Positions 3,067 through 28,203 of a stretch of DNA of 64,000 bases are shown here, in pieces; the stretch's first letter is position 1, and each line of letters opens with the position of its first letter. The translations under genes and the position numbers were made by a program. The notes beneath the pieces were generated by a model. The model was not told the DNA's origin. It did no database searches and was given only the letters and a program-made list of their open reading frames with translations. This DNA is from Cystobacter fuscus (lineage in GTDB: Bacteria > Myxococcota > Myxococcia > Myxococcales > Myxococcaceae): positions 7,750,001 through 7,814,000 of the forward strand of contig NZ_CP022098.1 of NCBI RefSeq assembly GCF_002305875.1, given 5' to 3'.

Positions 3067-4758
3067 CTACCCGCTCAACTCCCGGGAGGGGCTGGCGACG
3101 AGGCCCGAGCGCACGGTGAAGTCGCCGAAGCCTTCTCCCGGCCGCCTGTCCTTGGCGTACGCGGCGAACACCGGCTCGAGCGCCTCCAGCAGGCCCGCCT
3201 CGTCGATGTTCTCCCGGTACAGCCGGTTGAGGCGCTGCCCGCGCACGTCTCCGCCGAGGAAGAGGTTGTAGCGGCCCGGCGCCTTGCCCACGAGCGCGAT
3301 CTCCGCGAGGTAGGGCCGGGCACACCCGTTCGGGCAACCGGTGATGCGCAGGTGGATGTTGTCCTTCTCCAGCCCGTGCACCGCCATGCGTGCCTCCAGC
3401 AGGCCCACCAGGTCGGGCAGGTAGCGCTCGGCTTCCGCCATGGCCAGGGCGCACGTCGGCAGCGCCACGCAGGCCAGCGCGTTGCGGCGCAGGGGGCTCG
3501 CGCGCTGGTAGCCCGCGAGGCCATGCGCCTCCACCAGGGACTCGATGGCCGGCCGATCCTCGGAGGCGATGCCCGCGATGATGAGGTTCTGGTTGGGCGT
3601 GAGCCGGAAGTCACCCCGGTGCACCCGAGCGATCTCCCGCAGGCCCGTCAGGTGGTTGCTGCCGTCGCGGTCCGCCACCCGGCCGCTCTCGATGAAGAGC
3701 GTGAGGTTCCACTTGCCGTCGTACCCCTCGGTCCAGCCGAAGCGGTCCCCGTTGTGCTCGAACTTGAAGGGGCGCGCGGGCTCCAGCTTGAAGCCGAGCC
3801 GCTGCTCCAGCTCGCCCACGAACCAGGCGATGCCGCGATCCTCGATGGTGTACTTGAGCCGCGCGTGCTTGCGATTGGTCCGGTCGCCGTAATCACGCTG
3901 GACCTTCACCACGTTCTCGGCCACCACGAGCAGGCGCTCGGGCGGGATGAAGCCAATCACGTCCGCGAGCCGGGGGAAGGTCGCGTTGTCACCGTGGGTG
4001 GCTCCCATGCCACCGCCCACCGTGACGTTGAAGCCCACCAGTTCCCCGGCCTCCAGGATGGCGATGAAGCCCAGGTCCTGGGAAAAGACGTCCACGTCGT
4101 TGAGGGGCGGCACCACGACGGCCGCCTTGAACTTGCGCGGCAGATAGGTCGAGCCATAGATGGGCTCCTCCTCGCCGCCCGCGACCTTCTCCTCGTCCAG
4201 CCAGATCTCGTAGTAGGCGCGCGTCTTGGGCAGCAGGTGCTCGGAGAGACGCTGGGTCCACTCATGCACCAGCGCGTGCGCGCGCGAGTCCACCGGGTTG
4301 GGATTGCACATCACGTTGCGGTTGACGTCGCCGCAGGCGGCGATCGTGTCGAGCAGCGTGGCGTTGATGGCCGCGATGGTGGGCTTGAGATCGCCCTTGA
4401 GCACGCCGTGGAGCTGGAACGCCTGACGCGTGGTCACCCGCAGCGTCCCGTTGGCGTGGGTGCGCGCCAGCTCGTCCAGGACGAGCCACTGCTTGGGGGT
4501 GCACACCCCGCCGGGCAGGCGGGTACGGAGCATGAAGCTGTAGGCGGGCTCCAGTTTCTGCTGCCGGCGCTCCTCGCGGATGTCCCGGTCGTCCTGCTGG
4601 TAGCTGCCGTGGAACTTGATGAGCTGGGTGTCTGCCGGAGCGATGGCACCGGTGAGCGGATCGGCCAGGCTCTCCACCAGCGTGCCGCGCAGGTGGCGGC
4701 TGCGCGCCTTGATGTGCTCCACCTCGGCCAGGGGGGCGTTCGTCGGGTTCTTGCTCAT
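3067..4758 (-). CDS. cysI: Sulfite reductase hemoprotein subunit
   Basis: 563 residues from the ATG at 4758, the usual length for CysI. It binds siroheme and a 4Fe-4S cluster and reduces sulfite to sulfide with six electrons supplied by CysJ. Visible marks are the N-terminal ferrite-like half ([31 protein letters not shown]), the siroheme-contacting [12 protein letters not shown] stretch, and the C-terminal cluster ligands in [19 protein letters not shown] and [10 protein letters not shown]. It lies 13 bases after cysJ and is the last clear gene of the cysH-to-cysI operon, so it should share the promoter at 11535-11563. The 207 bases after it hold no clear U-rich terminator. A ferredoxin-dependent sulfite reductase is unlikely, given the neighbouring flavoprotein. 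Confidence 0.95.
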
Positions 4759-4771
4759 GGGAGATCTTCCC

Positions 4772-6595
4772 TCAGTAGACGTCGCGCAGGTAACGCTGCT
4801 GCTCGCGCAGGGTTTCGAGATGGGCCCGGGCATCCTCTCGGCTCTTGCCACCATGGGCCACGTAGATGTCGATCAACGCCTCGTGGACGTCCGGAGCCAT
4901 GCGCTGGGCCTCGCCACAGACGTAGAGGGAGGCGCCGCCTTCCAGCCAGGCGTGGACCTCGCGCCCCTTCTCGCGCAGGCGGTGCTGGACGTAGACCTTC
5001 TGGCCCTGGTCCCGCGAGAACGCCACGTCCAGACGGTGCAACACGCCCTTCTTCACCGCCTCCTGCCACTCCACCTGGTAGAGGAACTGGCTGCGGAAGT
5101 GCTGCTCGCCGAAGAAGAGCCAGTTGCGGCCGCTCGCTCCGGTCTCGGCGCGCTCCTGCACGAAGGCGCGGAACGGTGCCACGCCCGTGCCCGGGCCGAT
5201 CATCAGGATGTCCCGCGAGGGATCCGTCGGCAGGCGGAAGCGCTCGTTGGATTCGATGAACACCTCCACCACGTCCTTCTCCGCCGTACGCGTCGCGAGA
5301 TAGGAAGAGGCGGCGCCGAAGTGCCGGATGCCGAAGGCCTCGTAGTCCACCCGGGCCACCGTCAGGTGCACCTCGTCCCCCACCCGCTTCTGACTGGAGG
5401 CGATGGAGTAGAGCCGCGGCGTCAGGCGGCGCAGCGCGCCCACCAGTTCCTGCGCGCTCCACTCGGCGGGATGGGCCCGGAGCAGATCGATGACCTGATG
5501 GCTGTCGAGCAGCTTGCGCAGGCCCGCGGCGTTCTCGGGGGCGATCAGCCGCTCGAGTTCCTTGTCTCCGGAGCGCGAGGCGTGGCTCGTCAGGAAGGGC
5601 CGGCTCAGGCGGGTGATCTCCAGACCCTCGGACAACCAGCGGTGCAGCGGCAGCGCGCGGCCGTCACGCGACACCTCGGTGGCGCCGTCGAGCTTCAGCG
5701 TGGAGAGCACCGCGTCCACCAGCTCGGGCGGATTGCGCGGCACCACCCCGAGCGCGTCTCCCGGCTCGTAGCGCAGGCCCGAGCCCTCGAGCGACAGCTC
5801 CACGTGGCGCACGTCCTTGAGGGCGTCGCGGCCGGTGATGCGCTGGTTGGCCAGCACCTGGGCGGGATAGGGATTCTCCCGGCTGAAGGTGGGCGCGACG
5901 GACGCGGTGGGCAGATGCGTGACGGTGGCGACGGGAGCACCCAGCTCCGTGCGCGCGCGCTCCAGGGCCTGTCCCAGCCAGGGCTCGGCGACCGGCTCGA
6001 AGTCCACGTCGCAGTCGGCTCGCGAGAACAGCCGCGCGGCACCCAACTGCGCGAAGCGCTCGTCGAGCACCCGGCCGACCTCGCAGAACTTGGGGTAGCT
6101 CGAGTCCCCGAGCGACAGCACCGAGAACTGGAGCTGGTTGAGCGCCGGGGCGCGCTTGCCCATCACGAACTCGAAGAAGCCACGCGCGTCATCCGGGGGA
6201 TCGCCATCCCCCTGGGTGCTGATGACCACGTACAACACCCGCTCGTTCTTCAGCTCGCGCGTGGGGTACTCCCCGGCGCGGAAGACGCGCACGGCGACCC
6301 CGGCGGACTCCAGGCGCTGCTTGAGGCGCTCGGCCAGGAGCCGGCTGTTGCCCGTCTGGGTGCCATAGACCACGGTCGCCGGCGTCTGGGGGGAGGCCTG
6401 GGGCACGGCCGTCGGCTGGGACTGAGGCACGGACACCGGCAGGGACCGGGCGGCGAGCCCGGCGAAGTACCCGCTCAGCCAGTTGAGCGACGAGGCATCG
6501 AGCCCCTCGACGAGGCGCTGGAGCAGCGCGCCCTTGTCCGCGCCCAGCGGCGTGGCCAGGACGGCGACGGAGGATGCATTCACGGAGGCACTCAA
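4772..6595 (-). CDS. cysJ: Sulfite reductase [NADPH] flavoprotein alpha subunit
   Basis: 607 residues, normal for CysJ. It passes electrons from NADPH via FAD and FMN to CysI. Domains in order: an N-terminal extension of about 70 residues with a Pro/Gln/Ser-rich linker; a flavodoxin FMN domain ([18 protein letters not shown] near 75-92, [32 protein letters not shown]); an FAD-binding ferredoxin-reductase domain ([18 protein letters not shown]-type region); and an NADPH domain ([39 protein letters not shown]) ending in the aromatic residue Tyr (LRDVY), as in relatives where the aromatic stacks on the flavin. The ATG overlaps the end of cysN by 4 bases, implying translational coupling. Confidence 0.95.
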
Positions 6596-8250
6596 GGCGT
6601 CTTCTCCTGCGCGTCGAGGACGCGCTTGACCTGCGTGTCCACGTCCTCCGAGGGCTCCAACTCGAGCCAGGGGACGCCGGCGCCACGAAGCTGATCCCTC
6701 AAGACCAGACGCGCCTGGGGAACCGGGGTGTAGAGGATGGCGAGCAGGCCCGCCTCGGCCAGCGCGAGGGCGTTCTCCGCATCCCCACGCACGGTGGCGG
6801 TGTGCCGGCCCTGATCGAAGAGGGCGCGCTCCAGGCGGAGCGCGGCGTCACGCACCTCGGGGGTGCCCGTGAGCAGGAGGACCGCTCCGGACTGGCCCAG
6901 GCGCGCGCGCCGCTCGCCAGCGGAGACGAGGGAGCGCGCTTCCCCCTCCCCCTGCCCGCCCGCGCCGCCGAGGATCATCCCCGCGGCGACGGTGTCGTTG
7001 GTGAGCGGATCCACGACGATGAAGGCCCCGGTGCGGCGGTTGTCCCGGTAGGGATCGCACACCACCGGCCGCTTGCAGACGAGCCGCACCTTGGCGATGT
7101 CATTGAGCCCGAGCGTCGGGGTGGGCTGCTCGGACAGGTCCTCCAGTTCCTTGCGCCAGAGCACCTGCTCGATGTGGGCGGGGACGTACTTGGAGGTGTG
7201 CTTCACGAGGTAGCGGCGCGAGGTGTCCAGGCGCTCCTCGCCGAACCAGACCAGCATGGCCTCCATGTCCTGGAGTACCCGTGGCGGTTGCTCGGCGTGG
7301 GCAATCAGGTCTCCCCGGCTGATGTCCACCTCGTCCGTCAGGCGCAGCGTCACCGAGGCGGGCGCGCTGGCCTCCTCCAGGCGGCCGTCGAAGGTGTCGA
7401 TGGACGCGATGTGCGTGCGCCGCCGGGAGGGATACACGACGACCTCGTCCCCCAGGCGCACCTTGCCGGAGACGATCTGCCCGGCGAAGCCGCGGTAGTC
7501 CAGGTCCGGTCGCAGCACGTACTGCACGGGGAAGCGGAAGGCCGCGTCCTCCTGCCGGCGCTCGTGCGGCAGCGTCTCCAGCCACCCGAGCAGCGTCTCG
7601 CCGTCGTGCCACGGAGTGCGGGCGCTCGGCTGGGTGATGTTGTCGCCCGTGCGCGCGCTGATGGGGAAGAAGCGCACCTGCTCGAAGCCGAGCGTGCGGG
7701 CGAAGGCCTCGAACTCCGTGGACAGGCGCTCGAACACCGCCCGGTCGAAGTCCATCAAGTCCATCTTGTTGATGGCCACCGCCAGGTAGGGAATGCCCAG
7801 CAGCGAGGCGATGTACGCGTGCCGTCGCGTCTGCGGGAGGATGCCCAGGCGCGCGTCCACCAGGATGACGGCCGCGTCGGCCGTGGAGGCCCCGGTGGCC
7901 ATGTTGCGTGTGTATTGGAGGTGTCCCGGCGTGTCCGCGACGATCACCTTGCGCCGCTTCGTGGAGAAGTAGCGGTACGCCACGTCGATGGTGATGCCCT
8001 GCTCACGCTCGGCGCGCAGCCCGTCGGTGAAGAGCGAGAAGTCGATCTCACCGCCCGCGCTCGCGCGCTTCACCGCCGCCACCTGATCCTCGAAGAGCCC
8101 GTTGCACTCGTAGAGCAGCCGGCCAATGAGCGTGGACTTGCCATCGTCCACCGAGCCCACCACCGCCAGGCGCAACAATTCCTTCTCGGCGTGCTCGGCG
8201 AGGAAGCCCTGGACGTCCGTCCTGTCTTGAACCTGAGTCTCGGCGCTCAT
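6592..8250 (-). CDS. cysN: Sulfate adenylyltransferase GTPase subunit with a vestigial APS-kinase-like tail
   Basis: 552 residues from the ATG at 8250. CysN is the GTPase that drives CysD to make adenosine 5'-phosphosulfate (APS) from ATP and sulfate. Visible GTPase motifs: GSVDDGKSTL near residue 32, the switch region with REQGITIDVAYRYF, DTPGH and NKMD, followed by elongation-factor-like beta-barrel domains. CysN alone is usually about 430-475 residues and CysN-CysC fusions about 620-640, so this length is intermediate. The last 100 residues (about 452-552) follow the order of an APS kinase (a strand LLLTGTP, then RLERALFDQGRHTATVRGDAE), but the P-loop GLSGxGKST and the FISPYR region are gone. 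The tail is therefore probably catalytically dead. It follows cysD with one base between them. Confidence 0.93.
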   Translation of the reverse strand: MSAETQVQDRTDVQGFLAEHAEKELLRLAVVGSVDDGKSTLIGRLLYECNGLFEDQVAAVKRASAGGEIDFSLFTDGLRAEREQGITIDVAYRYFSTKRRKVIVADTPGHLQYTRNMATGASTADAAVILVDARLGILPQTRRHAYIASLLGIPYLAVAINKMDLMDFDRAVFERLSTEFEAFARTLGFEQVRFFPISARTGDNITQPSARTPWHDGETLLGWLETLPHERRQEDAAFRFPVQYVLRPDLDYRGFAGQIVSGKVRLGDEVVVYPSRRRTHIASIDTFDGRLEEASAPASVTLRLTDEVDISRGDLIAHAEQPPRVLQDMEAMLVWFGEERLDTSRRYLVKHTSKYVPAHIEQVLWRKELEDLSEQPTPTLGLNDIAKVRLVCKRPVVCDPYRDNRRTGAFIVVDPLTNDTVAAGMILGGAGGQGEGEARSLVSAGERRARLGQSGAVLLLTGTPEVRDAALRLERALFDQGRHTATVRGDAENALALAEAGLLAILYTPVPQARLVLRDQLRGAGVPWLELEPSEDVDTQVKRVLDAQEKTP

Positions 8251-18244: not shown

Positions 18245-18401
18245 GCGCCACCTCCAGTTCGAGCCGGAGGTGTCTAACGCACCGGGACGCGCCTTCAACA
18301 GAATCCAGGGGAAAAGGGGATGCAGGAGGACACTCGGCCCATGTCATGGTCTGGACCCCGCCTCGCGCGGCTGCCCCGCCTCCCACGCGCTGGAGTCGAA
18401 C

Positions 18402-19343
18402 ATGACCGTCGAAGACTGCCTGCCCACGCACCTCCGAGGATCCACCACCACCCTCACCCGGATCGCCGCGGGGCTCTCGGGCGCCGCCGTCTACCGCGTC
18501 GAGGCCTCCGGCCAGTCCTTCGTGCTCAAGATCGCCGGCGAGGCCGAGAACGAGGCCGACTGGCGCGGCGCGCTCCACATCCAGCGGCTCGCCGCCGACG
18601 CGGGGCTCGCACCCCGCATCGTCCACGTCGATGAGGCGCGACGCGCGGTCCTGACCGCTTTCGTCGCCGATCGTTCGTTCAGTACCTTCTACAGGGACCC
18701 GCGCACCCACGAGGCCGCGCTCACCCAGCTTGGCCGCACCGTGCGCCGCATCCACGCGCTCCCCCTGCCCGCCGACGCGATCGCGCGCGATCCCCGCGAC
18801 CTGCTCGCCCAGATCTGGGACGGCCTCCTGGCCGGCTTCGCCCTCCCGGGCTTCACGGTCGACGTGGTGCGGCTCGTGCTCGCCGAGGATCCATTGCTCC
18901 ACGAACGCGTCCTGGTCCTCGGCCACAACGACCTCAACCCCACCAACCTCATCTACGACGGCGAGGAGATCCTGATCCTCGATTGGGCCGCCGCCGGGAC
19001 GATGGACGCCTTCTACGATCTCGCGGTGCTCTCCGTCTTCCTGCGCATGGACGAGGGCACCAGCCTGCGCCTGCTGTCGGCCTACGAGGGCAAGGAGTTC
19101 GTCGAGCTGCCCAGGCGCTTCCTCTACACCCGCCGGCTGGCGGCGGCGCTCGCCGGAGCGTTCCAGCTCTACTTCGCCCGCCAGATGAAACACACGGGGG
19201 CCACCGGCACGGAGACGCTCGACTCCACGCCCTCGCTCGGCGAGTTCTATCAGCGGATGCAGGCCGGCGCGCTGAAGCTCGGCACGGCGGACGGCCACTG
19301 GGGGTTCGGCCTCGCCCTGCTCAAGGAAGGCCTCGCGCTGTGA
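18402..19343 (+). CDS. Phosphotransferase of the choline kinase/APH superfamily
   Basis: 313 residues from the ATG at 18402. The kinase-like fold shows an N-lobe with GLSGAAVYRVEASGQSFVLKIAG (ATP loop and the Lys), and the catalytic loop LGHNDLNPTNLIYDG with the metal-binding LDWAAAGTMDAFYDLA. The HNDLxPxN form (rather than HGDxxxxN) is closer to choline/ethanolamine and LicA kinases than to aminoglycoside resistance enzymes. The substrate is probably a small alcohol or amino alcohol; resistance is possible but not supported by context. It stands alone. Confidence 0.85.
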   Translation: MTVEDCLPTHLRGSTTTLTRIAAGLSGAAVYRVEASGQSFVLKIAGEAENEADWRGALHIQRLAADAGLAPRIVHVDEARRAVLTAFVADRSFSTFYRDPRTHEAALTQLGRTVRRIHALPLPADAIARDPRDLLAQIWDGLLAGFALPGFTVDVVRLVLAEDPLLHERVLVLGHNDLNPTNLIYDGEEILILDWAAAGTMDAFYDLAVLSVFLRMDEGTSLRLLSAYEGKEFVELPRRFLYTRRLAAALAGAFQLYFARQMKHTGATGTETLDSTPSLGEFYQRMQAGALKLGTADGHWGFGLALLKEGLAL

Positions 19344-19554
19344 ACCCGCTCTCCCACCATAAAGCCTCCCAGGGCCGGTGGTGAGGTCTTCGCGCCGTCA
19401 CGTAGGAGGCCACGGGAAGTCATTCCGAAGCCGGGGCCGGGTCGCGCTCTTTCGTTGAATTTCAAAATGAGCATCGCGTCGGGAGCGCACGACCCCACCC
19501 GGACAGGATGGAAAACGGCCGGGTGGTGGACCTCGTCCATTGGAAGAAGGCTCC

Positions 19555-20940
19555 ATGAACATGCCAGACAAAAGATGTGCTCCTTGGAAAACCACCCTGT
19601 TTGGAAACGGTCTCGTAACCCTGGCCCTCTCACTTCAGCTCTTGGGATGCTCTACCAATGAAGCGACGCAGTCCTCCAGTGGAGGGGATGACGAGAACGT
19701 GAGCGTGGAGCAGGGTCTCTCGATTGGACCCATCAAGTTTGGACCCTCCCTCAGCGTGGGTTACGCGCATAACTGTGCCGTCAAAATAGACGGCACTCCC
19801 ATTTGCTGGGGAGAAGATTATCAAGGACACACCCTACCGCCGGAAGGGTCGTTCATTCAGATCAGCACGGGTCAGATCCACTCGTGTGGGCTCAAGACCG
19901 ATGGGACTCTCTCCTGCTGGGGATCCAATGACGACGGCCAGGCCACACCTCCGACGGGCACGTTCACCCAGCTCAGCTCGGGCTGGAATTCCAACTGCGG
20001 AGTGAAGGCGGATGGGAGCCTGGCCTGCTGGGGAGCCAATTGGGAGGGCCAGGCTTCGCCACCCGCCGGGACCTTCACCCAGGTCAGTACGAACGGGTGG
20101 ACCAGCTGCGGAGTGAAGACGGATGGAACGCTGGCCTGTTGGGGAGCCAATTGGGAGGGCCAGGCTTCGCCTCCGACCGGCGTCTTCGCCCAGGTCAGCA
20201 TGGGCATCAATTACGGCTGTGGCGTGAAGGCGGATGGATCGCTGGTCTGCTGGGGAGACGATTCGAAGGGCCAGGCTTCGCCTCCGGCGGGCACGTTCAC
20301 GCAAGTCAGCACGGGCTACTCTCATACCTGTGGAGTGAAGACGGATGGGAGCCTGGCCTGCTGGGGAGACAACCTCTTTGGACAGGCCTCGCCCCCGAGC
20401 GGCTCCTTCACTCGGGTCAGTGCGGGCTGGGAGCGGACTTGCGGAGTGACGACCGACGGGATCATCGCCTGCTGGGGGAACTCCGGCCTGCACGGTATCT
20501 TCGACCCACCGAACCCCTTCATCCAGGTCAGCACCAGCTCCGGCTACACCTGTGGATTGAGGGTTGACGGAACCCTGACGTGCCGCGCCCCCTTCTCCAC
20601 CTGGAACTTTCCCGAGGACCGCTTCACCCAGGCCGCCAGCGGCGGCAGCGTCTTCTGCGCGGTGAAGACCGATGGAACCCTCACCTGCCGGGGGAACAGC
20701 GACTACGGTCAGCACTTGCCTCCCGCGGGCACCTTTACCCAGGTCAGCATGGCTGAACACCACGCCTGTGGCGTGAAGACCGATGGGAACCTGTCCTGCT
20801 GGGGGATGAACAATTACGGCGAGGCGTTGCCTCCCCCAGGGACTTTCCTCCACGTCAGCACGGGACAATTCCATACCTGTGGGGTCAAGCTCGACGGGAG
20901 CATCACCTGCTGGGGAGCCTACCAGGCCTCTCCCCTGTGA
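19555..20940 (+). CDS. Lipoprotein built of 11 RCC1-like repeats
   Basis: 461 residues from the ATG at 19555, with a GAAGAAGG ribosome site. The N-terminus is a lipoprotein signal: basic residues, a hydrophobic stretch LVTLALSLQ and the lipobox LLGC, so the mature protein is lipid-anchored after a Ser/Gly/Asp-rich linker. From about residue 65 to the end there are 11 copies of a unit of about 37 residues, with the pattern CGVKxDGxLxCWG followed by GxxxPPxGxFTQVSxG. This is the RCC1/beta-propeller repeat as found in myxobacterial surface proteins. Each unit holds two Cys, probably paired outside the cytoplasm. Function is unknown; binding to surfaces or other cells is plausible. Confidence 0.85.
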   Translation: MNMPDKRCAPWKTTLFGNGLVTLALSLQLLGCSTNEATQSSSGGDDENVSVEQGLSIGPIKFGPSLSVGYAHNCAVKIDGTPICWGEDYQGHTLPPEGSFIQISTGQIHSCGLKTDGTLSCWGSNDDGQATPPTGTFTQLSSGWNSNCGVKADGSLACWGANWEGQASPPAGTFTQVSTNGWTSCGVKTDGTLACWGANWEGQASPPTGVFAQVSMGINYGCGVKADGSLVCWGDDSKGQASPPAGTFTQVSTGYSHTCGVKTDGSLACWGDNLFGQASPPSGSFTRVSAGWERTCGVTTDGIIACWGNSGLHGIFDPPNPFIQVSTSSGYTCGLRVDGTLTCRAPFSTWNFPEDRFTQAASGGSVFCAVKTDGTLTCRGNSDYGQHLPPAGTFTQVSMAEHHACGVKTDGNLSCWGMNNYGEALPPPGTFLHVSTGQFHTCGVKLDGSITCWGAYQASPL

Positions 20941-21030: not shown

Positions 21031-21633
21031 ATGCGCAGCGCTGCGGCGAAACGGCACCAGCCGCCGGGACGTGACAGGAAGCCACGCAAGGAGGACAGCG
21101 GACTGAACCGCGAGGTGCGTGCCCAGTTGCTGCGGCTCGACCGCATCGACAGCGTCCTGCGTTCCCAATGGGTCGCGACCGGCTTCAAGGATCGCGCACT
21201 CGAGCGCAAGCTCGAGGCGCTGAACACCACGGCGATCGACTGGCTGCGCGAGGTGATCGCGCTCCACGGGTGGCCTGGGCGAAGCCTGGTGGGGCGTGCG
21301 GCGGCGGATGCCGCGAGCCGGCTCATCCAGCATGCCGACTGCTCCCTGGCCTTCCAACAACGGTGTCTGCGTCTGCTCAAGGAGGCCGCGGCGAGAGGTG
21401 AGGTTCCCCCGCGGCACGTGGCCTATCTCACCGACGTGCTGCGCATGCGGACAGGCAGAAAACAGCTCTTCGGGACGAAGTTCCGCAAGCAGAGGGGCAG
21501 GCTCGTCCCGTACCCCATCGAGAGGGAGTCCGAGGTCGACGAGCGACGCAAACAGATGGAACTCGAGCCTCTGCGCGCATACGCTCGCCGACTCGAGCGC
21601 ACCTATCTGCCGTCGCCCACGAGGCAGCGATGA
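21031..21633 (+). CDS. DUF6624-like protein, first gene of the putative RiPP locus
   Basis: 200 residues; the ATG at 21031 follows a GGAGGAGCTCC ribosome site. A helical protein with the marks I associate with DUF6624: WLREVIALHGWPGRSLVG (about 69-86), a conserved LIQHADCSLAFQQRCL, and YLTDVLRMRTGRKQLFGTKF. The N-terminus is strongly basic. No catalytic motif is known for this family. The stop overlaps the start of the next gene (ATGA), so it is translated together with the JmjC-like proteins, and it probably acts in the same pathway. Confidence 0.65.
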   Translation: MRSAAAKRHQPPGRDRKPRKEDSGLNREVRAQLLRLDRIDSVLRSQWVATGFKDRALERKLEALNTTAIDWLREVIALHGWPGRSLVGRAAADAASRLIQHADCSLAFQQRCLRLLKEAAARGEVPPRHVAYLTDVLRMRTGRKQLFGTKFRKQRGRLVPYPIERESEVDERRKQMELEPLRAYARRLERTYLPSPTRQR

Positions 21634-22871
21634 GAAGCGGACCCGATTGGGAGACGTTCGTGCGGTGCAACTGGGAGAAGGCCCCCGCCCTCCTCTCCCT
21701 TGGTCATCCCGTCGTCCCGCCGGCGCAAGCCTTCCGAAGCCTCGTCACGGCGAGCGAGCCGTTCCGGCACGGCACGCGCTTCAGGGCCCTGCCCGACGTG
21801 CGGTTCTTCGTCGAGAACGCCCAACTGCGCGCCCCTGGCAAGCTCCTCCCCGGAGCTCGGGAGCGGGATGTGGAGCGCTACATCCGCCGCGCCTCCGCCC
21901 TGCTGGGGCACAAGGCGTTCCAGCTCCTCGTCGAGCAGCCGCTCCTGCTCGACTTCTCCCTCTGGAATGACGTCCGGGACTTCGTCCGGGGCCTGCTGGA
22001 GCGCGTCGGTGTCCCCGTGCTCCCCATCGTCAGTGACTTGCTCGTGGGCAACTTCGCCCGCTCACCGCAGGGCGTCGCGAAGCGACTCCATCACTCGGTC
22101 TTCATCCTGGTCCTCCACGGTCGGATGCGGATCCGTGTCTGGAAGAAGCTCTGGGGCGATCCACCGAACGAGACCGTCGGCTTCGACCGGCACCTCTCCG
22201 AAGCGACGACGCTGGAGGCCCAGGCGGGAGACATCCTGTATGTGCCCTCGCGCTCCTTCCATCTCGAGGAGTGCAGGGAGCCGTGCATGGCCTTGCGGTT
22301 GTGGATTCCCGCTCGGGGCAGCCGCCCGACCCTTGTGGTCAAGGAGCTGCTCACGAAGCTCATGGACCACCGGCTCGCGCATGATCACACGGTTCCCTAT
22401 CTCGAATACTCGGGACGCCGCCGGAAGGGGGCCCGCTCCCCGGTCGAGCCCCTGGAACGTGCGGCCCGTGCATTCGAGGAGGTGGCGCGGAGCCCGGATC
22501 TCCCGCAAGCGCTGCGCATCATCTGGGCCCGTCGCGTCAGCGCCTGTGGGCTAGAACCGGCTCCGCCTCCCCGGGAGCTCCAGCCCCTGGACGACTCCTC
22601 CCTCGTTCGAGGAGCGCCACGCGGTCACATCGTGCGGATGCTGGACAGCTCGGGGCAATGGATCTGGGCCGTCAACGGCCACGTGTTCCCCGGCTCGGGC
22701 AGCGCCGAGGCCGTCCAGGTGCTCGAGTCGCTGGAGTCTGGAGCCGCGCTGCGGGTGGGCGAACTCCGCCGGGTGGCGCGGCGAGGGGCCCGGCGTACGG
22801 AGATCCGCGAGCTTCTGGAGACGCTCCTCGCGCTCCGCGGAATCGAGCTCGTGTCCGAGAAAGGGGCCTGA
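21630..22871 (+). CDS. JmjC/cupin-like protein lacking the metal-binding HxD (probable pseudoenzyme)
   Basis: 413 residues. It aligns along its length with the next gene and with the gene at 26390-27697: an N-terminal DWETFVRCNWEKAPALL segment (about 6-22), a cupin barrel, and a C-terminal region with WIWAVNGHVFPGSG and a winged-helix-like end. In the two relatives the iron-binding HxD is GVHLD and GAHTD. Here the same place reads GVAKR (148-152), so two of the three ligands are missing, while the distal His211 (SRSFHLEE) is kept. It is therefore unlikely to be an active 2-oxoglutarate oxygenase and may be a partner subunit or peptide-binding protein. It is coupled to the DUF6624 gene (4-base overlap) and lies 3 bases before the next gene. 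Confidence 0.75.
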   Translation: MRSGPDWETFVRCNWEKAPALLSLGHPVVPPAQAFRSLVTASEPFRHGTRFRALPDVRFFVENAQLRAPGKLLPGARERDVERYIRRASALLGHKAFQLLVEQPLLLDFSLWNDVRDFVRGLLERVGVPVLPIVSDLLVGNFARSPQGVAKRLHHSVFILVLHGRMRIRVWKKLWGDPPNETVGFDRHLSEATTLEAQAGDILYVPSRSFHLEECREPCMALRLWIPARGSRPTLVVKELLTKLMDHRLAHDHTVPYLEYSGRRRKGARSPVEPLERAARAFEEVARSPDLPQALRIIWARRVSACGLEPAPPPRELQPLDDSSLVRGAPRGHIVRMLDSSGQWIWAVNGHVFPGSGSAEAVQVLESLESGAALRVGELRRVARRGARRTEIRELLETLLALRGIELVSEKGA

Positions 22872-22874
22872 CGG

Positions 22875-24221
22875 ATGCCGCGGATCGAGGTCGCGAAGAG
22901 GTTCGACTGGGATACCTTCGTGCGGCGTTATTGGAACAAGCGCCCGGTGCTCTACAAGGGGACGTCCGCGTCACCCTTCGAGCTCGCGGATGTCTTCGAC
23001 GCGGCGGCCGGTGCGACCCGGAGCTACTCGAAGCAGAGCTACTCCACGGACTCGCGCTCGAACCTCCAGTTCACGATCGACCGGGAGCAGCAGCTCTTCC
23101 TCGAGCCCTGGCTCCCGCGAGCGTCCGACGGTGCCCTGGAAGCCTATGAGGCCCGCGTCCTGGAGCGGTTGGGCTCGCGGAAGTATGCCCTCATCATCGC
23201 GAGCCTGTATTCCTCGGGATTCGGCCTCTGGTCCAAGGAGCGGGCCTTCTTCTCGGAGCTGTGGCGGCGCGTCGGCATGCCGCTGTCCGGAGCCATCACG
23301 ACGCTCTTCCACGGCAACTATGAGCACAGCCCGGTGGGCGTCCACCTGGACCGCTTCACGACCTTTCTCTTCGCGCTGAAGGGACGCAAGCGGATGCGGT
23401 TCTGGCCGAAGAAGCCCTGGAGCGCGCCGGTGAGCACGATCCTGGACTACGTGCCCTACCTGAAGGAGTCGTTCGTCGCCGAGGTGGAACCCGGGGACAT
23501 CCTGTATTGGCCCTCGAGCTACTACCACGTGGGGGAGAGCGCGGGGGAGGAGGTGGCCACCAGCGTGAACGTTGGCATCCCTCGCACGGAGCACCCCACG
23601 GTCTACTACGTCGACGACCTGCTGCGTGGCACCATCGACGAACTCTCGCTCTCCGAGCAGGAGTGGCGGAACACCCGTCTGGCGAAGGTGAGCGCCTCAC
23701 CCCTGGCGCGCGGCGTGCTCACGCGCGCGGGGCCCCTCTCTCCCGAGCTACCGCGCGCGCTCCTCGAGGCCGTGGACGCGTTTCGTGACGTGAGCCGGCC
23801 CCGGGAGACGCGCAGGCACATCCAGGCCATCTGGCTCAAGCGCCTCACCGCGGGCGGCTTCGAGCCCGTGCCTCTCCCTTCGCGCAGGCGACGGCTGGAG
23901 GATGAAGACCGCATCCGTGTGGACCCGCGGTTTCCGATCCTCTTCGAGCAGGTGGATGCAGGGCACTGGATCTGCTCCGGCAACGGGCATGCGCTGCTCG
24001 AGGCGGGAAGCGCGAGGACCGTGGCTCGGCTGTTCGAGACATTGAACTCGGGACACGAGGTTCGTGTCGGAGAGCTTCTGCGGCCGTTTCGTTCTCGCGC
24101 GCCGAGGGCACCAGGCGCGGGACGAGTGAGAGGCGTGACGCGCGATGACATGAGAGCCGTGCTGGAGAGGCTCCAGGGGTTTCGGGCGCTGATCCGACTT
24201 GGACGTGGCTCTCCGCCCTAG
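22875..24221 (+). CDS. JmjC-domain 2-oxoglutarate/Fe(II) oxygenase
   Basis: 448 residues. The N-terminus FDWDTFVRRYWNKRPVLYKG matches the RoxA/YcfD-like cupin-8 entry segment. The iron ligands are His157 and Asp159 (GVHLD) and His218 (YYHVGES); a Lys/Arg-rich strand ALKGRKRMRFWPKK after the first pair is suited to bind 2-oxoglutarate. A C-terminal domain shared with its neighbours (HWICSGNGHALLEAGS, then VRVGELLRPF) resembles a winged helix and may hold the substrate. Family members hydroxylate protein or peptide side chains. With the downstream peptide and dehydratase-like genes, a peptide substrate is the simplest idea. It lies 77 bases before the peptide gene. Confidence 0.82.
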   Translation: MPRIEVAKRFDWDTFVRRYWNKRPVLYKGTSASPFELADVFDAAAGATRSYSKQSYSTDSRSNLQFTIDREQQLFLEPWLPRASDGALEAYEARVLERLGSRKYALIIASLYSSGFGLWSKERAFFSELWRRVGMPLSGAITTLFHGNYEHSPVGVHLDRFTTFLFALKGRKRMRFWPKKPWSAPVSTILDYVPYLKESFVAEVEPGDILYWPSSYYHVGESAGEEVATSVNVGIPRTEHPTVYYVDDLLRGTIDELSLSEQEWRNTRLAKVSASPLARGVLTRAGPLSPELPRALLEAVDAFRDVSRPRETRRHIQAIWLKRLTAGGFEPVPLPSRRRRLEDEDRIRVDPRFPILFEQVDAGHWICSGNGHALLEAGSARTVARLFETLNSGHEVRVGELLRPFRSRAPRAPGAGRVRGVTRDDMRAVLERLQGFRALIRLGRGSPP

Positions 24222-24298
24222 CGGCGTGGCTCGCTTGACGGGGGTGCACGAAGGAGAACATGCTTGCTGCTCCAACTCGCGGTCCCACGGAGACTGTC

Positions 24299-24454
24299 AT
24301 GCCCAAGGCTCATGCGAAGGTAAAGGCCCCCCGGTCGTCGAAGCAGGCCAAGCAGAAGCTCGTCGCGATGATGCGCGAGGTGGAGAAGACGACGACGAAG
24401 CAGCCTTCGTCCAAGACGGCCCGTGGGTCCTGCGCTCGGATTTACTGCGTCTGA
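24299..24454 (+). CDS. Candidate RiPP precursor peptide, 51 residues
   Basis: The ATG at 24299 has GGAG six bases upstream; an in-frame ATG at 24260 (AAGGAG three bases away) would give 64 residues. The peptide has a basic, Ala/Lys/Gln-rich first part (MPKAHAKVKAP), a helical stretch with KLVAMMREVEK (residues about 21-31) and then a tail dense in modifiable residues. The tail runs TTTK, then SSKTARGSCARIYCV at the C-terminus, with seven Ser/Thr and two Cys in the last 20 or so residues. This is the build of a lanthipeptide-type precursor: leader helix, then a core with Ser/Thr and Cys. It lies 26 bases before a gene for a lanthipeptide-dehydratase-like protein in the same direction. The assignment is inference from composition and position. 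Confidence 0.6.
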   Translation: MPKAHAKVKAPRSSKQAKQKLVAMMREVEKTTTKQPSSKTARGSCARIYCV

Positions 24455-24480
24455 CACGGCTCGTGGAGCCCAGCCGCTCG

Positions 24481-26373
24481 ATGGCCCGGAAGGCTGACCT
24501 GCTGCTGGAGCTTCCGAAGTCGCATTCAGGGCCGGCCCCTTCCCTGCCTCCGCAATCCCACCGTCTGGTGGAGGCCGTGAGAAAGGGCCGTGCTTCTTCC
24601 TTCTTCCCTCCCGTGGCCCAACGCGGCCCCGGAGGGGTGCTTCGAGCCGCGAGGCTCCTTCAGGGCGAGGAGGACGCCCGGCTCCTCCGCTCCACGCTGG
24701 CACTGCCCCGCTTTCGTCCGCTGCGAGAGTTCCTCGAGGAACTCGGCGGCTGGTGTCGGCGCGCGGCGCGACGGCACCCGGAGTTGCTCTCGCCGCGCCT
24801 GCTCACCGTCACCAACGGGGAGCTGTTCGGTCCGCTGATCTCCGACGCCTTCCTCTTGTGCGCCGCGGCCGACGAAGGCCTTCCTCATCCGGGCCTGCGC
24901 ACGTTGCTGGAGGGCTTCCAGGCGTTCTTCTCGCTCTTCCTCGAGCGGCTCGCCCGCGACGAGCGCGCGGGAGTGTTTCGTCAGGAAGGCTTGCACGGGC
25001 CCCTTGTCGGCCTGTGGGCCCACCCCGAGGAGACGCACAACGGGCGGCAGAGCGTGCTGCGGCTGCGCTTTCGCAAGGGAGGCGCACTGGCCTACAAGCC
25101 CCGACCCGCCGGCGGGGAGGCCCTCTTCCTCCAGGAAGGCCGCGGTGGAGTCGCGCGCTCGCTCTTCGAGTGGCTCAACCGTCTGCCCGCCGCGTCCGGC
25201 ACCGTGCGCCTTCCCACGATGCGCATTCTCGAGGGCAAGGGCCGCGACCGGTCGGCCTATAGCTGGCAGGAATGGATTCCCCGGCCCCGCCAGTGGGGGA
25301 TCCTCCGACAGTCCGGGAGCGTTCGGCTCGAGGGCTGCCGGCTCACCCCCTCCGAAGCCGAACGCTTCTGGCACCACGCCGGTTCACTCACCGCCGCGTG
25401 CTTCGCCATGGGAGCCACGGATCTCCACGCGGGCAATGTCCTGGTGGGCACCCGGCGGGGGACACGACAGCCATTGCCCTACCCGGTGGACCTGGAACTC
25501 TTCTTCGCTCCGATCGGCAGGCTCCCGGAGACGGGGCTGATCTCGGACGAGAGAGAGCGTGGCAACCACCATGTGGGGTTCGAGCGTCTGGCGCGGTGGT
25601 GTACCGCCGGAGGCCCGCTGGCGTGCTTCTTCCCGTCGCGGGGTGGCGGGCTGAGCCTGCGACGACGGACACAGCCCTGGGCCCGCGAGGAGGCTCGCTC
25701 CGTCGTGGCCGATACGGAGGGAAACATTGGCTACGGCGCCTATCTCCTCCCCTACCTCCGCGGCATGTTCGACCTCTGGACGCTGCTGCTGCTCGAGCAG
25801 TCGAAGGTCGTCCGGTTCCTGAAGCGCACCTCCCGGCGGCGCTTCGTCCGCGTCCTGGTCAAGCCCACGGCCATGTACGTCGAGGAGTTGGATCGGCTGT
25901 TGCTGTCTCCCGGACGATCGCCGGCCGGGCATGCGCGAGGCCGGAGCCGGTTCAGCCGAGCGGAGTGGGAACAACTCCACCGGTTCGACGTGCCGTATTT
26001 CTTCCGGCAGGCGCAAGGGGGGCCCTTGCTCCACCTGGCACCACCTCCCGAGCCGTTCGGGCGGAAGCGAGCAGGACAGCAGCGGTTCCTCGAGCCCCAC
26101 CCTCCCCCTTCGAAGCGTGTGCTGGACGGGGGGCAGATCACCCTGGTCAACCTCGGCGTGGCCGTTCGCGACGCCGTCACCTTCGTCCTCCAGGATGTTC
26201 GCCATCGCGTCGCGGAGGATCCACGCCGGGGCGTCCGCATGGAGCTGCGGGACGCGCGGCGCGGAGCGGTGTCCTTCGATTGGAGGGAGGTGGGCCAGCG
26301 CCTGACGTACTCCTGGAGCCGCCGGGAACTGCGCGTGAGCATGGAGCCGCTGGCGGCACACGTCTCGGATTGA
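24481..26373 (+). CDS. Stand-alone LanM-type dehydratase/kinase domain (DUF4135) without LanC cyclase
   Basis: 630 residues from the ATG at 24481; a GTG at 24463 is an alternative. The protein matches the dehydratase half of class II lanthipeptide synthetases (DUF4135), which phosphorylates Ser/Thr in a precursor and eliminates phosphate. Family marks are HNGRQSVLRLRF, YKPR (205-208, Lys206), SWQEWI, then TDLHAGN (Asp314, His316, Asn319) and DLE (Asp337), the residues that form the kinase-like site. Full LanM proteins are about 900-1100 residues and end in a zinc-binding LanC domain; here the sequence ends with a short beta-rich tail and has no CHG zinc motif. So it may dehydrate or only phosphorylate, with ring closure spontaneous or done elsewhere. 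It stops 16 bases before the convergent JmjC gene. Confidence 0.82.
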   Translation: MARKADLLLELPKSHSGPAPSLPPQSHRLVEAVRKGRASSFFPPVAQRGPGGVLRAARLLQGEEDARLLRSTLALPRFRPLREFLEELGGWCRRAARRHPELLSPRLLTVTNGELFGPLISDAFLLCAAADEGLPHPGLRTLLEGFQAFFSLFLERLARDERAGVFRQEGLHGPLVGLWAHPEETHNGRQSVLRLRFRKGGALAYKPRPAGGEALFLQEGRGGVARSLFEWLNRLPAASGTVRLPTMRILEGKGRDRSAYSWQEWIPRPRQWGILRQSGSVRLEGCRLTPSEAERFWHHAGSLTAACFAMGATDLHAGNVLVGTRRGTRQPLPYPVDLELFFAPIGRLPETGLISDERERGNHHVGFERLARWCTAGGPLACFFPSRGGGLSLRRRTQPWAREEARSVVADTEGNIGYGAYLLPYLRGMFDLWTLLLLEQSKVVRFLKRTSRRRFVRVLVKPTAMYVEELDRLLLSPGRSPAGHARGRSRFSRAEWEQLHRFDVPYFFRQAQGGPLLHLAPPPEPFGRKRAGQQRFLEPHPPPSKRVLDGGQITLVNLGVAVRDAVTFVLQDVRHRVAEDPRRGVRMELRDARRGAVSFDWREVGQRLTYSWSRRELRVSMEPLAAHVSD

Positions 26374-26389
26374 GTGGCGGCTCGCGCGC

Positions 26390-27697
26390 TCATTCCCCGG
26401 CGGGCAGCTTCTCGATGGCGCGGAAGGCCATCAGCCTGCGCAGGAGCAGCCGCGTGATCGCGCGCGTCGGGCGCTCCGAGAAGCGCTCGATCGCATCCCC
26501 CACGGCGAGCGGCTTGCCTCGGTTCAGCGCGCGGATCAGCGCCGCGTGCCCCTTCGCGCCGGGGAGTGCCACCGAGAACCCGTTGGCGGCGACGTGCAGC
26601 TCGTCGCGCCAGGGGACACAGAGGATGGGGTGGGCCGCGTCCGCCCGCACCCGGTCGTTCTTCGCGAGCTCCGGGGCGGGACCTTCAGGCGGCGGCTTCA
26701 GCCCCAGGCCCGTCACCCATCCCAACCAGCGCAGGCGGAGCGCACGCTCGAGTCGAGGTGCCGCCTTCGGGCTCCGGGCGGCCTCGAGCGCCACGGAGAA
26801 GTCGCGTGGGAGCGCTCGTGCGGCCCTGGAGCGCTCGCTCTTCCGGAAGGGCAGCGGCGCGGTCTGTTCCTCCATGGACAGGGCTTCGCCGATGACCTCG
26901 GACAGGGCGGCCTCCACCCAGGAGGCCGCCGTCGAGCCGCGGTCCAGCCCCAGGGAGAGCGTCGTCACCAGCCCCTCATCCACCGACTCCGCGACGTGAC
27001 CGTACTCTCGGGGCCAGTAGAGGAGGTCCCCCGCCTTCCCTTCCAGGACACGCGCGCGCGAGCGGTAGCGCTGGTAGTCGTGAGGGTTCTCGCTCAGCGG
27101 CTGCTCCATCTGCTGGAAGACCTTCGGTGGCCAGGCCAGGAGCCTCTTGCGCCCTTCGATGATGACCGTGAAGACATCCTGGGCATCCGTGTGGGCACCG
27201 AACGGCGTCGCCCGGTAGTTCCCCGCGAACAGATTGCAGTCCGTGCCGCCCCGGAGGAAGCCGGTGCGCTCGAAGAGGCCACTGTAGAAGTCCCGCAGGC
27301 GGAACCAGAGCCCCGGCACGACCGTCTGGCAGTTGTTGAGCATCAGCGCGAAGCAGGTGTAGCCGTGCCGCGCGCGGAGCCGCTCCGCGTACCCTCCGAG
27401 CGAGCCATCCTCCGCCCGGGGCAGCAGCTCCCAGTACCTGTCTCCCAGGTATTCGGAGGTCTGCCGGTAGACCATCTTCGGGTCCCCGAGGTAGAGCCGG
27501 AGTTCATTCGGCCTCCCCGCGCGTGCATCCGCCGCGGCCAGGGTGAGGCCCTGGAAGAGCGCCTCCGGTGTCGTGAGGGGCTCGGGGAACGGACGCCGCA
27601 CCACCGCGGGCCTGCTCAGCGGGTGAGCGCGGAGGTAGCCATCCCAGAAGGTCCCCGGGACAGCGAAGCCGGTCGTTGCATGAGAAGAGTTCTTCAA
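26390..27697 (-). CDS. JmjC-domain 2-oxoglutarate/Fe(II) oxygenase, third paralogue
   Basis: About 435 residues if started at the TTG at 27697, which has a GGAGG site 5 bases before it and gives an N-terminus aligned with the paralogues; the frame stays open to 27874. Iron ligands are intact: His169 and Asp171 (FGAHTDAQD) and His234 (YGHVAESV), with EGRKRLLAWPPK as the likely 2-oxoglutarate strand. The C-terminal domain (HVAANGFSVALPG, then RLLLRRLMAFRAIEKL) corresponds to that of the other two proteins. It runs against the DUF4135 gene, end to end with a 16-base gap, which suggests one shared locus with separate promoters. Substrate unknown; the same peptide is likely. Confidence 0.78.
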   Translation of the reverse strand: MKNSSHATTGFAVPGTFWDGYLRAHPLSRPAVVRRPFPEPLTTPEALFQGLTLAAADARAGRPNELRLYLGDPKMVYRQTSEYLGDRYWELLPRAEDGSLGGYAERLRARHGYTCFALMLNNCQTVVPGLWFRLRDFYSGLFERTGFLRGGTDCNLFAGNYRATPFGAHTDAQDVFTVIIEGRKRLLAWPPKVFQQMEQPLSENPHDYQRYRSRARVLEGKAGDLLYWPREYGHVAESVDEGLVTTLSLGLDRGSTAASWVEAALSEVIGEALSMEEQTAPLPFRKSERSRAARALPRDFSVALEAARSPKAAPRLERALRLRWLGWVTGLGLKPPPEGPAPELAKNDRVRADAAHPILCVPWRDELHVAANGFSVALPGAKGHAALIRALNRGKPLAVGDAIERFSERPTRAITRLLLRRLMAFRAIEKLPAGE

Positions 27698-28203
27698 CTC
27701 CACCTCCCGTGGCCTGTACGCCGCGACGTGCTTTGCTACATCGCCCACGTGCGTTGGGGAAGTCCTCGAAGGGCCAGGGGGCAGCCAACTCGTAGTACCT
27801 GGAGATGTCTTCCACTCCAGCCTCAGTCTTGAGATTTCGTCGCCAGCCGGTGGAGCAGTGACCCCGGGGTACATACCTCTTCGGCGATCATCCTGAGCAC
27901 TCGGCGCCGGGCTGCCGGGGTTCGTTGTTGACGCAGCCGTCGACGGAGGCCAGCAGGCTCATCAGCAGCCACCGCGAGGTGGACGGGCGGAAGGAAGACA
28001 AGGGGGAGTTCATGCCCGCGGCGAGTATCGGACACTCATGGCGGCACCGTCGCAAAAAGGTGGAGTTCGTGTCCTGCCCTCACGGAAGCACGCGCTTAAA
28101 CCCGAAAAAATGCGCCGATGGCTCCTAGGCGGCATCGCGTCCCTGCTCGAAGCAGCGAGACCCGACCCACCCTGATTCCCGGTAGCAAGAGAGGAAGGCC
28201 CGT
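27698..28203. other. Intergenic region with small open frames only
   Basis: About 500 bases between the start of the third JmjC gene and the RlpA-like gene. The best small frame is on the plus strand, 28012-28128: 38 residues with a GGGGGAG site 4 bases before its ATG, ending in a Cys/Ser/Thr-bearing stretch (FVSCPHGST, then PKKCADGS). A 41-residue minus-strand frame (28013 to 27888) starts like a lipoprotein signal (WLLMSLLASVDGC) but ends at once. Both are weak, and they overlap antisense. The promoters of the two flanking genes must lie here; I cannot point to clear -35/-10 pairs. Confidence 0.4.

Follow-up and report, generated by a model that had tools for sequence, protein, structure and literature searches.

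A putative RiPP cassette with a LanC-free LanM-type dehydratase, DUF6624 and paired JmjC proteins in Cystobacter fuscus and its relatives

Genes of the locus

We analyzed a 64,000-nucleotide stretch of the genome of Cystobacter fuscus (one contig, 12.35 Mb; RefSeq assembly GCF_002305875.1, contig NZ_CP022098.1, positions 7,750,001 to 7,814,000); this whole stretch is the window, and its first letter is position 1. In the window, a gene for a short peptide directly precedes a gene for a LanM-type dehydratase-like protein and follows genes for a DUF6624 protein and two tandem JmjC proteins (Table 1). A cassette of four to five such genes occurs in three bacterial phyla; its best reading is a new family of ribosomally synthesized and post-translationally modified peptides (RiPPs), characterized by a precursor motif, a DUF6624 fusion and a pair of JmjC proteins, one live and one apparently dead. 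A search of the open-licence PMC literature, which leaves most subscription papers and preprints outside, found no published description of this gene set among the papers listed.

Table 1. Features of the locus, in window coordinates.
Feature	Position	Strand	Support
DUF6624 protein, 200 residues	21031..21633	+	Pfam PF20329, 63 bits
Pseudo-JmjC protein P0003, 413 residues; JmjC_2 fold without the HxD iron ligands	21630..22871	+	JmjC_2, 24.6 bits
Predicted JmjC oxygenase P0004, 448 residues; iron triad H157, D159, H218 kept	22875..24221	+	JmjC_2, 32.6 bits
Precursor peptide, 51 residues, MPKAHAKVKAPRSSKQAKQKLVAMMREVEKTTTKQPSSKTARGSCARIYCV	24299..24454	+	homologues at the equivalent place in all 28 loci
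Predicted core SCARIYCV, residues 44-51	24428..24451	+	motif [ST]-C-x(3-4)-Y-C-x(1-3); 46 peptides, 35 loci
LanM-type dehydratase-like protein, 630 residues; PI3-kinase-like fold, no LanC domain	24481..26373	+	DUF4135, 71 bits
Third JmjC protein P0005, convergent; HTD...H kept, start codon uncertain	26390..27874	-	JmjC_2, 37.7 bits

The genes are closely packed: those for DUF6624 and P0003 overlap by 4 bases, and those for P0003 and P0004 are separated by 3 bases. The dehydratase ATG, which fits the nearest relatives as the start, lies 26 bases past the stop codon of the peptide, and the stop codon of P0005, at the low end of its minus-strand gene, lies 16 bases beyond the end of the dehydratase gene; the original prediction, made from the sequence alone, had given both spacings, and all of its open frames are present. 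The peptide is preceded by a GGAG stretch resembling a ribosome-binding site (24289-24292); an alternative in-frame ATG upstream (24260) would give a peptide of 64 residues. The dehydratase matches DUF4135 alone in Pfam (residues 151-360 of the 640 scanned; cut-offs are 29 bits for this family and 22 bits for JmjC_2), with no LANC match, as expected from its initial description as a LanM-type dehydratase without LanC; the NCBIfam LanM model TIGR03897 gives 44.9 bits vs a cut-off of 304.

Conservation of the gene set and the precursor

Whole-genome searches at E 1e-20 found relatives of the dehydratase in 11 of the 144 genomes examined that are related to the host (host included). With a profile of the dehydratase (A2), relatives were found in 12 of 195 genomes of Myxococcota (host included), 10 of 297 genomes in the family to which Luteimonas huabeiensis belongs (Lysobacteraceae) and three of 394 genomes in the class to which Streptomyces palmae belongs. 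Scanning genome contigs yielded 10 relatives; the genome sets of these searches overlap. We studied the neighborhoods of 28 loci, one per genome and with repeat fetches of a place counted once (the window, L006-L015, L027-L035 and L064-L071; 12 from Myxococcota, 11 from Lysobacteraceae and five from Actinomycetes) in stretches of 9-22 kb, five of which (L006, L007, L013, L014 and L069) are shortened by contig ends. All 28 loci encode orthologues of both tandem JmjC proteins, and pairwise distances computed for the dehydratase and for each JmjC family are correlated with r 0.96-0.97 (325 pairs from 26 loci; L007 and L015, in which a gene is split over frames, were omitted). In an all-versus-all comparison of the called frames, only the dehydratase/DUF6624 and JmjC clusters span all three groups. 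Two more clusters span two groups: one consists of minus-strand frames that lie, at least in part, opposite JmjC genes, and the other of frames from five Lysobacter-type loci and L028. The gene calling for this comparison was crude, that is, it missed JmjC frames in five loci where tblastn finds them.

Co-occurrence was also examined from the side of the JmjC proteins in the Myxococcota and Lysobacteraceae samples. At E 1e-60, the JmjC proteins of the system are found in 10 of 294 Lysobacteraceae genomes, identical to the 10 with the dehydratase, and in 13 of 189 Myxococcota genomes, that is, the 12 with the dehydratase and one more (G016). The JmjC proteins of G016 are distant (215 and 237 bits vs at least 635 for the others) and belong to another RiPP-like cluster; there (L123, G016:C11:163000-182500), three JmjC_2-like proteins are encoded beside YcaO, TfuA, an MvdD-type ATP-grasp protein and a LanB-type dehydratase. 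Two of the dehydratase genes are irregular: in L007 (Streptomyces palmae, 4532-6989) the dehydratase occupies two frames (a sequencing error or a broken gene), and in L027 (G030:C2:17874-19751) the similarity continues for a few residues beyond a TAG stop near the C-terminus.

The two tandem JmjC proteins differ consistently. In the downstream protein (P0004 type), HxD...H is kept in all 28 loci, and the iron triad is invariant in the 16 sequences aligned; among proteins of solved structure, the L16 arginine hydroxylases are closest to it in sequence (4lit, 4.9e-07). The upstream protein (P0003 type) has lost HxD in all 28 loci and looks catalytically dead, judged from these residues. The third JmjC protein, P0005, keeps the iron triad; it probably falls outside the conserved system, because the examined stretches of the 27 other loci contain no orthologue, and we dropped it as a member. 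The three JmjC proteins proposed initially are therefore two in the conserved system, only one of which keeps HxD...H, and a third that was found only in the window. JmjC proteins of PF08007 with domains resembling the RiPP recognition element, and bacterial homologues in RiPP-like contexts, are noted in the part of PMC12710340 that we cite; no Pfam model matched the C-terminal stretches of the three window proteins, where a RiPP recognition element (PqqD-like winged helix) was sought.

The precursor is conserved to the same extent. When the frames of the first 20 loci were simply listed, short frames with the same C-terminal pattern lay upstream of the dehydratase in 18; in L009 and L010 the precursor frames lie farther upstream. 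A fixed pattern ([ST]C, one to five residues, YC, up to six residues, stop) was then applied to both strands of 35 loci (the 28 and the seven second loci described below; 606,568 bases), using stop-to-stop frames of at least 20 codons. The pattern matches 46 of 10,154 frames and no others. All 46 are on the coding strand, 39 within ~2 kb upstream of the dehydratase and seven behind the active JmjC gene in the second loci, and each of the 35 loci has at least one. Because the earlier loci had supplied the pattern, only the 15 loci fetched later (L064-L071 and L084-L090) are an independent test; all 15 have a precursor (that in L070 was found with stop-to-stop frames and was missed when a start codon and no more than 150 residues were required). 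The peptide is not a chance frame, because it is present in all 28 related loci, none of which has the neighbors without it; the original prediction had named this co-occurrence as its check, the lack of conservation that by its own terms would have refuted it did not appear, and the 51-residue precursor that it picked out is real.

The 46 peptides contain 35 distinct cores (e.g., SCARIYCV in the window, SCSRFIYCV, TCIRVYCMV, TCEKVYCV and SCMAGGYCLP), and ten loci encode two or three precursors each with differing cores. The spacer from the first Cys to the Tyr is always three (21 peptides) or four (25 peptides) residues, the first Cys follows Thr in 31 peptides and Ser in 15, and the spacer between the core Cys residues holds Arg or Lys in 42. 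Five precursors compared with NCBIfam matched no family; in Pfam, the same five gave only a sub-threshold match to DUF6243 for the peptide of the window (12.6 bits vs 25). A conserved short precursor with a leader and a variable core, encoded beside modifying enzymes, is the arrangement that identifies a RiPP locus, and it is found here.

DUF6624, listed at first as an upstream neighbor, is a conserved member of the system and not a bystander. In 16 of the 28 loci, in phyla other than that of the host, it is in the same frame as the dehydratase, at the C-terminus, that is, in the place of LanC in LanM enzymes; Pfam finds both domains and no LANC in the nine of these 16 fused proteins that were scanned, and in L007 DUF6624 is joined to the second piece of the split dehydratase. 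The fusion shows only that DUF6624 works with the dehydratase. It is a separate gene in five loci (the window, L027, L028, L032 and L035) and is absent from the locus in the remaining seven (genomes G025, G043, G055, G067, G068, G074 and G174). Each of these seven genomes has a DUF6624 protein of the system's type at a second locus (254-268 bits with the system's profile vs 133-152 for eight other DUF6624 proteins); the second loci also encode both JmjC proteins and a precursor. A model of DUF6624 (predicted local distance difference test score, pLDDT, 89) matches the lanthipeptide synthetase CuvL with Z 7.2 (143 residues aligned, 5.4 Å), within the range of unrelated helical proteins, so this match was not used; two matches of the DUF6624 sequence in the PDB (E 0.075 and 1.8) were taken as chance.

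Further genes lie near these loci. The second loci (L084-L090) come from seven genomes of one genus (g23) and have cores such as TCIRIYCSPY; the next gene encodes a protein of 496-509 residues, which in L084 has a sub-threshold match to squalene/phytoene synthase, and L084, L086, L088 and L089 contain an additional 262-residue frame that is a Pfam thioesterase in L084, the only one scanned. In the window, a protein with nine RCC1-type repeat matches is encoded just upstream of the locus (19540-20940), and an APH-type phosphotransferase gene (PF01636) is located ~2 kb upstream (18399-19343); the neighborhood comparisons of the loci showed no PF01636 gene as a shared neighbor.

Predicted chemistry and alternative explanations

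A search of the PDB with the dehydratase profile returned nothing at E 0.01, so we used fold comparison. An AlphaFold2 model built from 18 relatives (pLDDT 80) is most similar to LicM2 (Z 17.6, 384 residues, 3.3 Å), followed by CylM (Z 16.5, 380 residues, 3.6 Å) and PI3-kinase-type domains (~Z 14). The profile also aligns with those of four DUF4135 proteins encoded in other parts of the host genome (hhalign 98.8 per cent, E 1.3e-16). These four matches to DUF4135 lie outside the window, and in two cases the open frame has ~1,130 residues; the host genome also contains six LANC_like matches.

In CylM, the passages of the CylM paper on its active site assign K274, D347, H349, N352 and D364 to phosphorylation and D252, H254, R506 and T512 to elimination. 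We mapped these by the LanM motifs and their spacing (DxH, YKPR, DxHxxN, VDxE and R-x5-T) in profiles of the host LanM proteins, CylM itself being unaligned, and counted the dehydratase residues from the ATG at 24481. The counterparts of the phosphorylation residues are K206, D314, position 316, N319 and D337, in the same order; those of the elimination residues are E184, H186, R457 and T463. K206, D314, N319, D337, E184, H186 and R457 are invariant in the 18 aligned dehydratases, and position 463 is Thr or Ser in all 18. Phosphorylation and elimination therefore both look possible from the residues, although the loss of the His349 counterpart (see below) leaves doubt.

We consider it somewhat probable that the locus is a RiPP biosynthetic cassette in which Ser/Thr in the core is dehydrated by the LanM-type enzyme and the core is oxygenated by a JmjC protein, together with DUF6624. 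The precursor, about 42-64 residues long, would be presented via its leader. The dehydratase, judged from its fold and residues, would phosphorylate the Ser or Thr directly before the first core Cys and eliminate the phosphate to give dehydroalanine or dehydrobutyrine. The co-location and fusion suggest that DUF6624, whether fused, separate or supplied from a second locus, may work with the dehydratase at the usual place of LanC. The active JmjC protein would add oxygen to a side chain of the core, and its constant pairing with the dead JmjC protein is consistent with a role for the latter as a peptide-binding subunit that aids it. More speculatively, the second Cys might close a thioether ring of seven or eight residues on the dehydroamino acid, by DUF6624, by LanC in trans or spontaneously. 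The more specific proposal, that DUF6624 replaces LanC in closing this ring and that an obligate live/dead JmjC pair then oxygenates the ring, is offered only tentatively, and we think it rather doubtful.

Several observations weigh against the dehydration and oxygenation pathway. Of the five kinase-site residues that the original prediction called intact, four are among the invariant residues, but the fifth, His316, is found only in the window protein, that is, the His349 of CylM has no counterpart in 17 of 18 sequences; the H349A variant of CylM nevertheless retained a little activity, according to the portion of the CylM paper that reports it. The position of CylM Asp252 is Glu in all 18 sequences. 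Because of these two differences, dehydratase activity is not assured. In the 10-11 kb examined of the Myxococcus second loci there is no dehydratase gene; since DUF6624 is missing at the first locus and the dehydratase gene at the second, the primary and second loci complement each other. None of the structural matches to the DUF6624 model is convincing (the highest Z is 7.9 and the best Foldseek E is 1.7), so structure does not name the role of DUF6624. When closely similar precursors were compared codon by codon, the counts were mixed and did not point uniformly to purifying selection (five synonymous and one non-synonymous codons for L033/L034, three and 14 for L029/L013). No peptidase or transporter gene common to the three phyla was found by the crude gene calling in the 9-22 kb stretches. 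Finally, no LANC_like match lies within 20 kb of 27 of the 28 loci, as far as the contigs reach.

The sole LANC_like match within 20 kb of a locus is a broken gene directly behind the active JmjC gene of L069 (G835:C245:3934-4676). Elsewhere in the genomes, LANC_like matches are common: 25 of the 28 genomes have one, so LanC in trans is possible in most of them, and in G025 and G068 partial or full matches are 23 and 26 kb away from the locus, respectively. The three genomes with none are G146 and G150, both metagenome-assembled (behind L008 and L012), and G694. LanC in trans does not look required.

If the core Ser/Thr were phosphorylated and the phosphate stayed, as in phospeptin, the product would be a phosphopeptide; the LanM-type domain without LanC fits this explanation, and EmbM is a known kinase-only example in which the elimination residues are missing (PMC9505594, in the passages on phospeptin). 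However, R457 and T/S463 are kept in 18 of 18 sequences and H186 is invariant, and the EmbA precursor, as described in the same passages, has no Cys, vs two in the motif of all 46 precursors. We downgraded the kinase-only explanation once the elimination residues were mapped and now regard it as improbable; likewise, of the two outcomes in the original wording, 'phosphorylated or dehydrated', dehydrated is the likelier because the elimination residues are kept.

The chemistry might instead be mainly oxidative, the JmjC pair and DUF6624 modifying Tyr-Cys or Arg while the kinase-fold protein activates or binds the peptide. The Tyr and both Cys are as constant in the cores as the Ser/Thr (the search pattern demands all four), the active JmjC protein is nearest to arginine hydroxylases and most cores have Arg or Lys between the Cys residues, the stretches examined of the Myxococcus second loci have everything but the dehydratase gene, and DUF6624 also occurs in graspetide clusters (PMC13097080, in the part concerned with these clusters). 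We nevertheless judge this explanation unlikely, given that every Myxococcota and Lysobacteraceae sample genome with the system's JmjC proteins has the dehydratase, except G016 with its distant ones, and that most catalytic residues of the dehydratase are invariant. It is very improbable that the peptide serves unmodified as a small regulator or a metal binder, with the enzymes acting on another substrate; the lack of a transporter or protease common to the loci of the three phyla would agree with this, but each of the 28 loci has the peptide upstream of the dehydratase, ten loci encode two or three peptides with different cores, and the shared proteins are of RiPP-enzyme types.

We therefore return to the RiPP cassette with a LanM-type dehydratase and an oxygenating JmjC protein. 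In the original prediction, the RiPP-type locus, the LanM-type dehydratase, the absence of LanC, the JmjC proteins and the precursor all stand, while the number of JmjC proteins and His316 do not. The cassette is minimal, self-contained and experimentally tractable, and is common to myxobacteria, Lysobacter relatives and actinomycetes. It places DUF6624, a family without an assigned function that also recurs in graspetide clusters, at the usual position of LanC, so its role is directly testable, and the conserved live/dead JmjC pair hints at a way of directing JmjC enzymes to peptide substrates. If DUF6624 does replace LanC and the JmjC proteins do oxygenate the peptide, the products would form a further lanthipeptide-like class.

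Comparison with known systems

In class II lanthipeptide biosynthesis, LanM is a single synthetase with a DUF4135 dehydratase and a C-terminal LANC cyclase. The system described here shares with LanM enzymes (CylM and LicM2) the dehydratase fold, most of the catalytic and elimination residues, and Ser/Thr and Cys in the core. It differs in that LanC is absent and DUF6624 is in its place, in the JmjC pair, in the Glu at the position of Asp252 and in the missing His349 counterpart; we reject membership in class II as such, there being no LanC domain. The nearest solved sequence relatives of the active JmjC protein are the ribosomal oxygenases YcfD/RoxA (L16 arginine hydroxylase) and NO66, named for their action on ribosomal proteins; we know of no link of either to a precursor peptide. 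AviCys peptides have a C-terminal core Cys, unlike the cores here, in which the Cys is not C-terminal.

Class V lanthipeptides (LanK/LanY/LanX) also use separate dehydration machinery, and class Va is LanC-free with a kinase-fold cyclase, in the account given in the cited part of PMC12291118; however, LanK is PF01636 and LanY is PF17914, neither of which matched any of the five locus proteins, and the dehydratase here matches DUF4135 only. Graspetide clusters share DUF6624 (again in the relevant part of PMC13097080) but are defined by an ATP-grasp ligase, for which neither the five locus proteins nor the seven window neighbors scanned gave a match. In biphenomycin biosynthesis, a JmjC protein, the gamma-ornithine hydroxylase BipG, acts on a RiPP precursor; the chemistry there is that of MNIO and B12 radical SAM enzymes, and the cluster genes listed in the cited section of PMC12707348 include no LanM-type enzyme.

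The closest parallels to the dehydratase are PoyF (polytheonamide) and EmbM (phospeptin), LanM-type enzymes with the dehydratase domain and without a cyclase; the passages on them in PMC9505594 mention neither JmjC nor DUF6624, and EmbM is set apart from the enzyme here by its missing elimination residues and its Cys-free precursor. According to those passages, the polytheonamide cluster differs in its NHLP-leader precursor and its radical SAM methyltransferases; it combines its LanC-free dehydratase with the Fe(II)/alpha-ketoglutarate hydroxylase PoyI, so the pairing of such a dehydratase with a hydroxylase of this kind is not unheard of.

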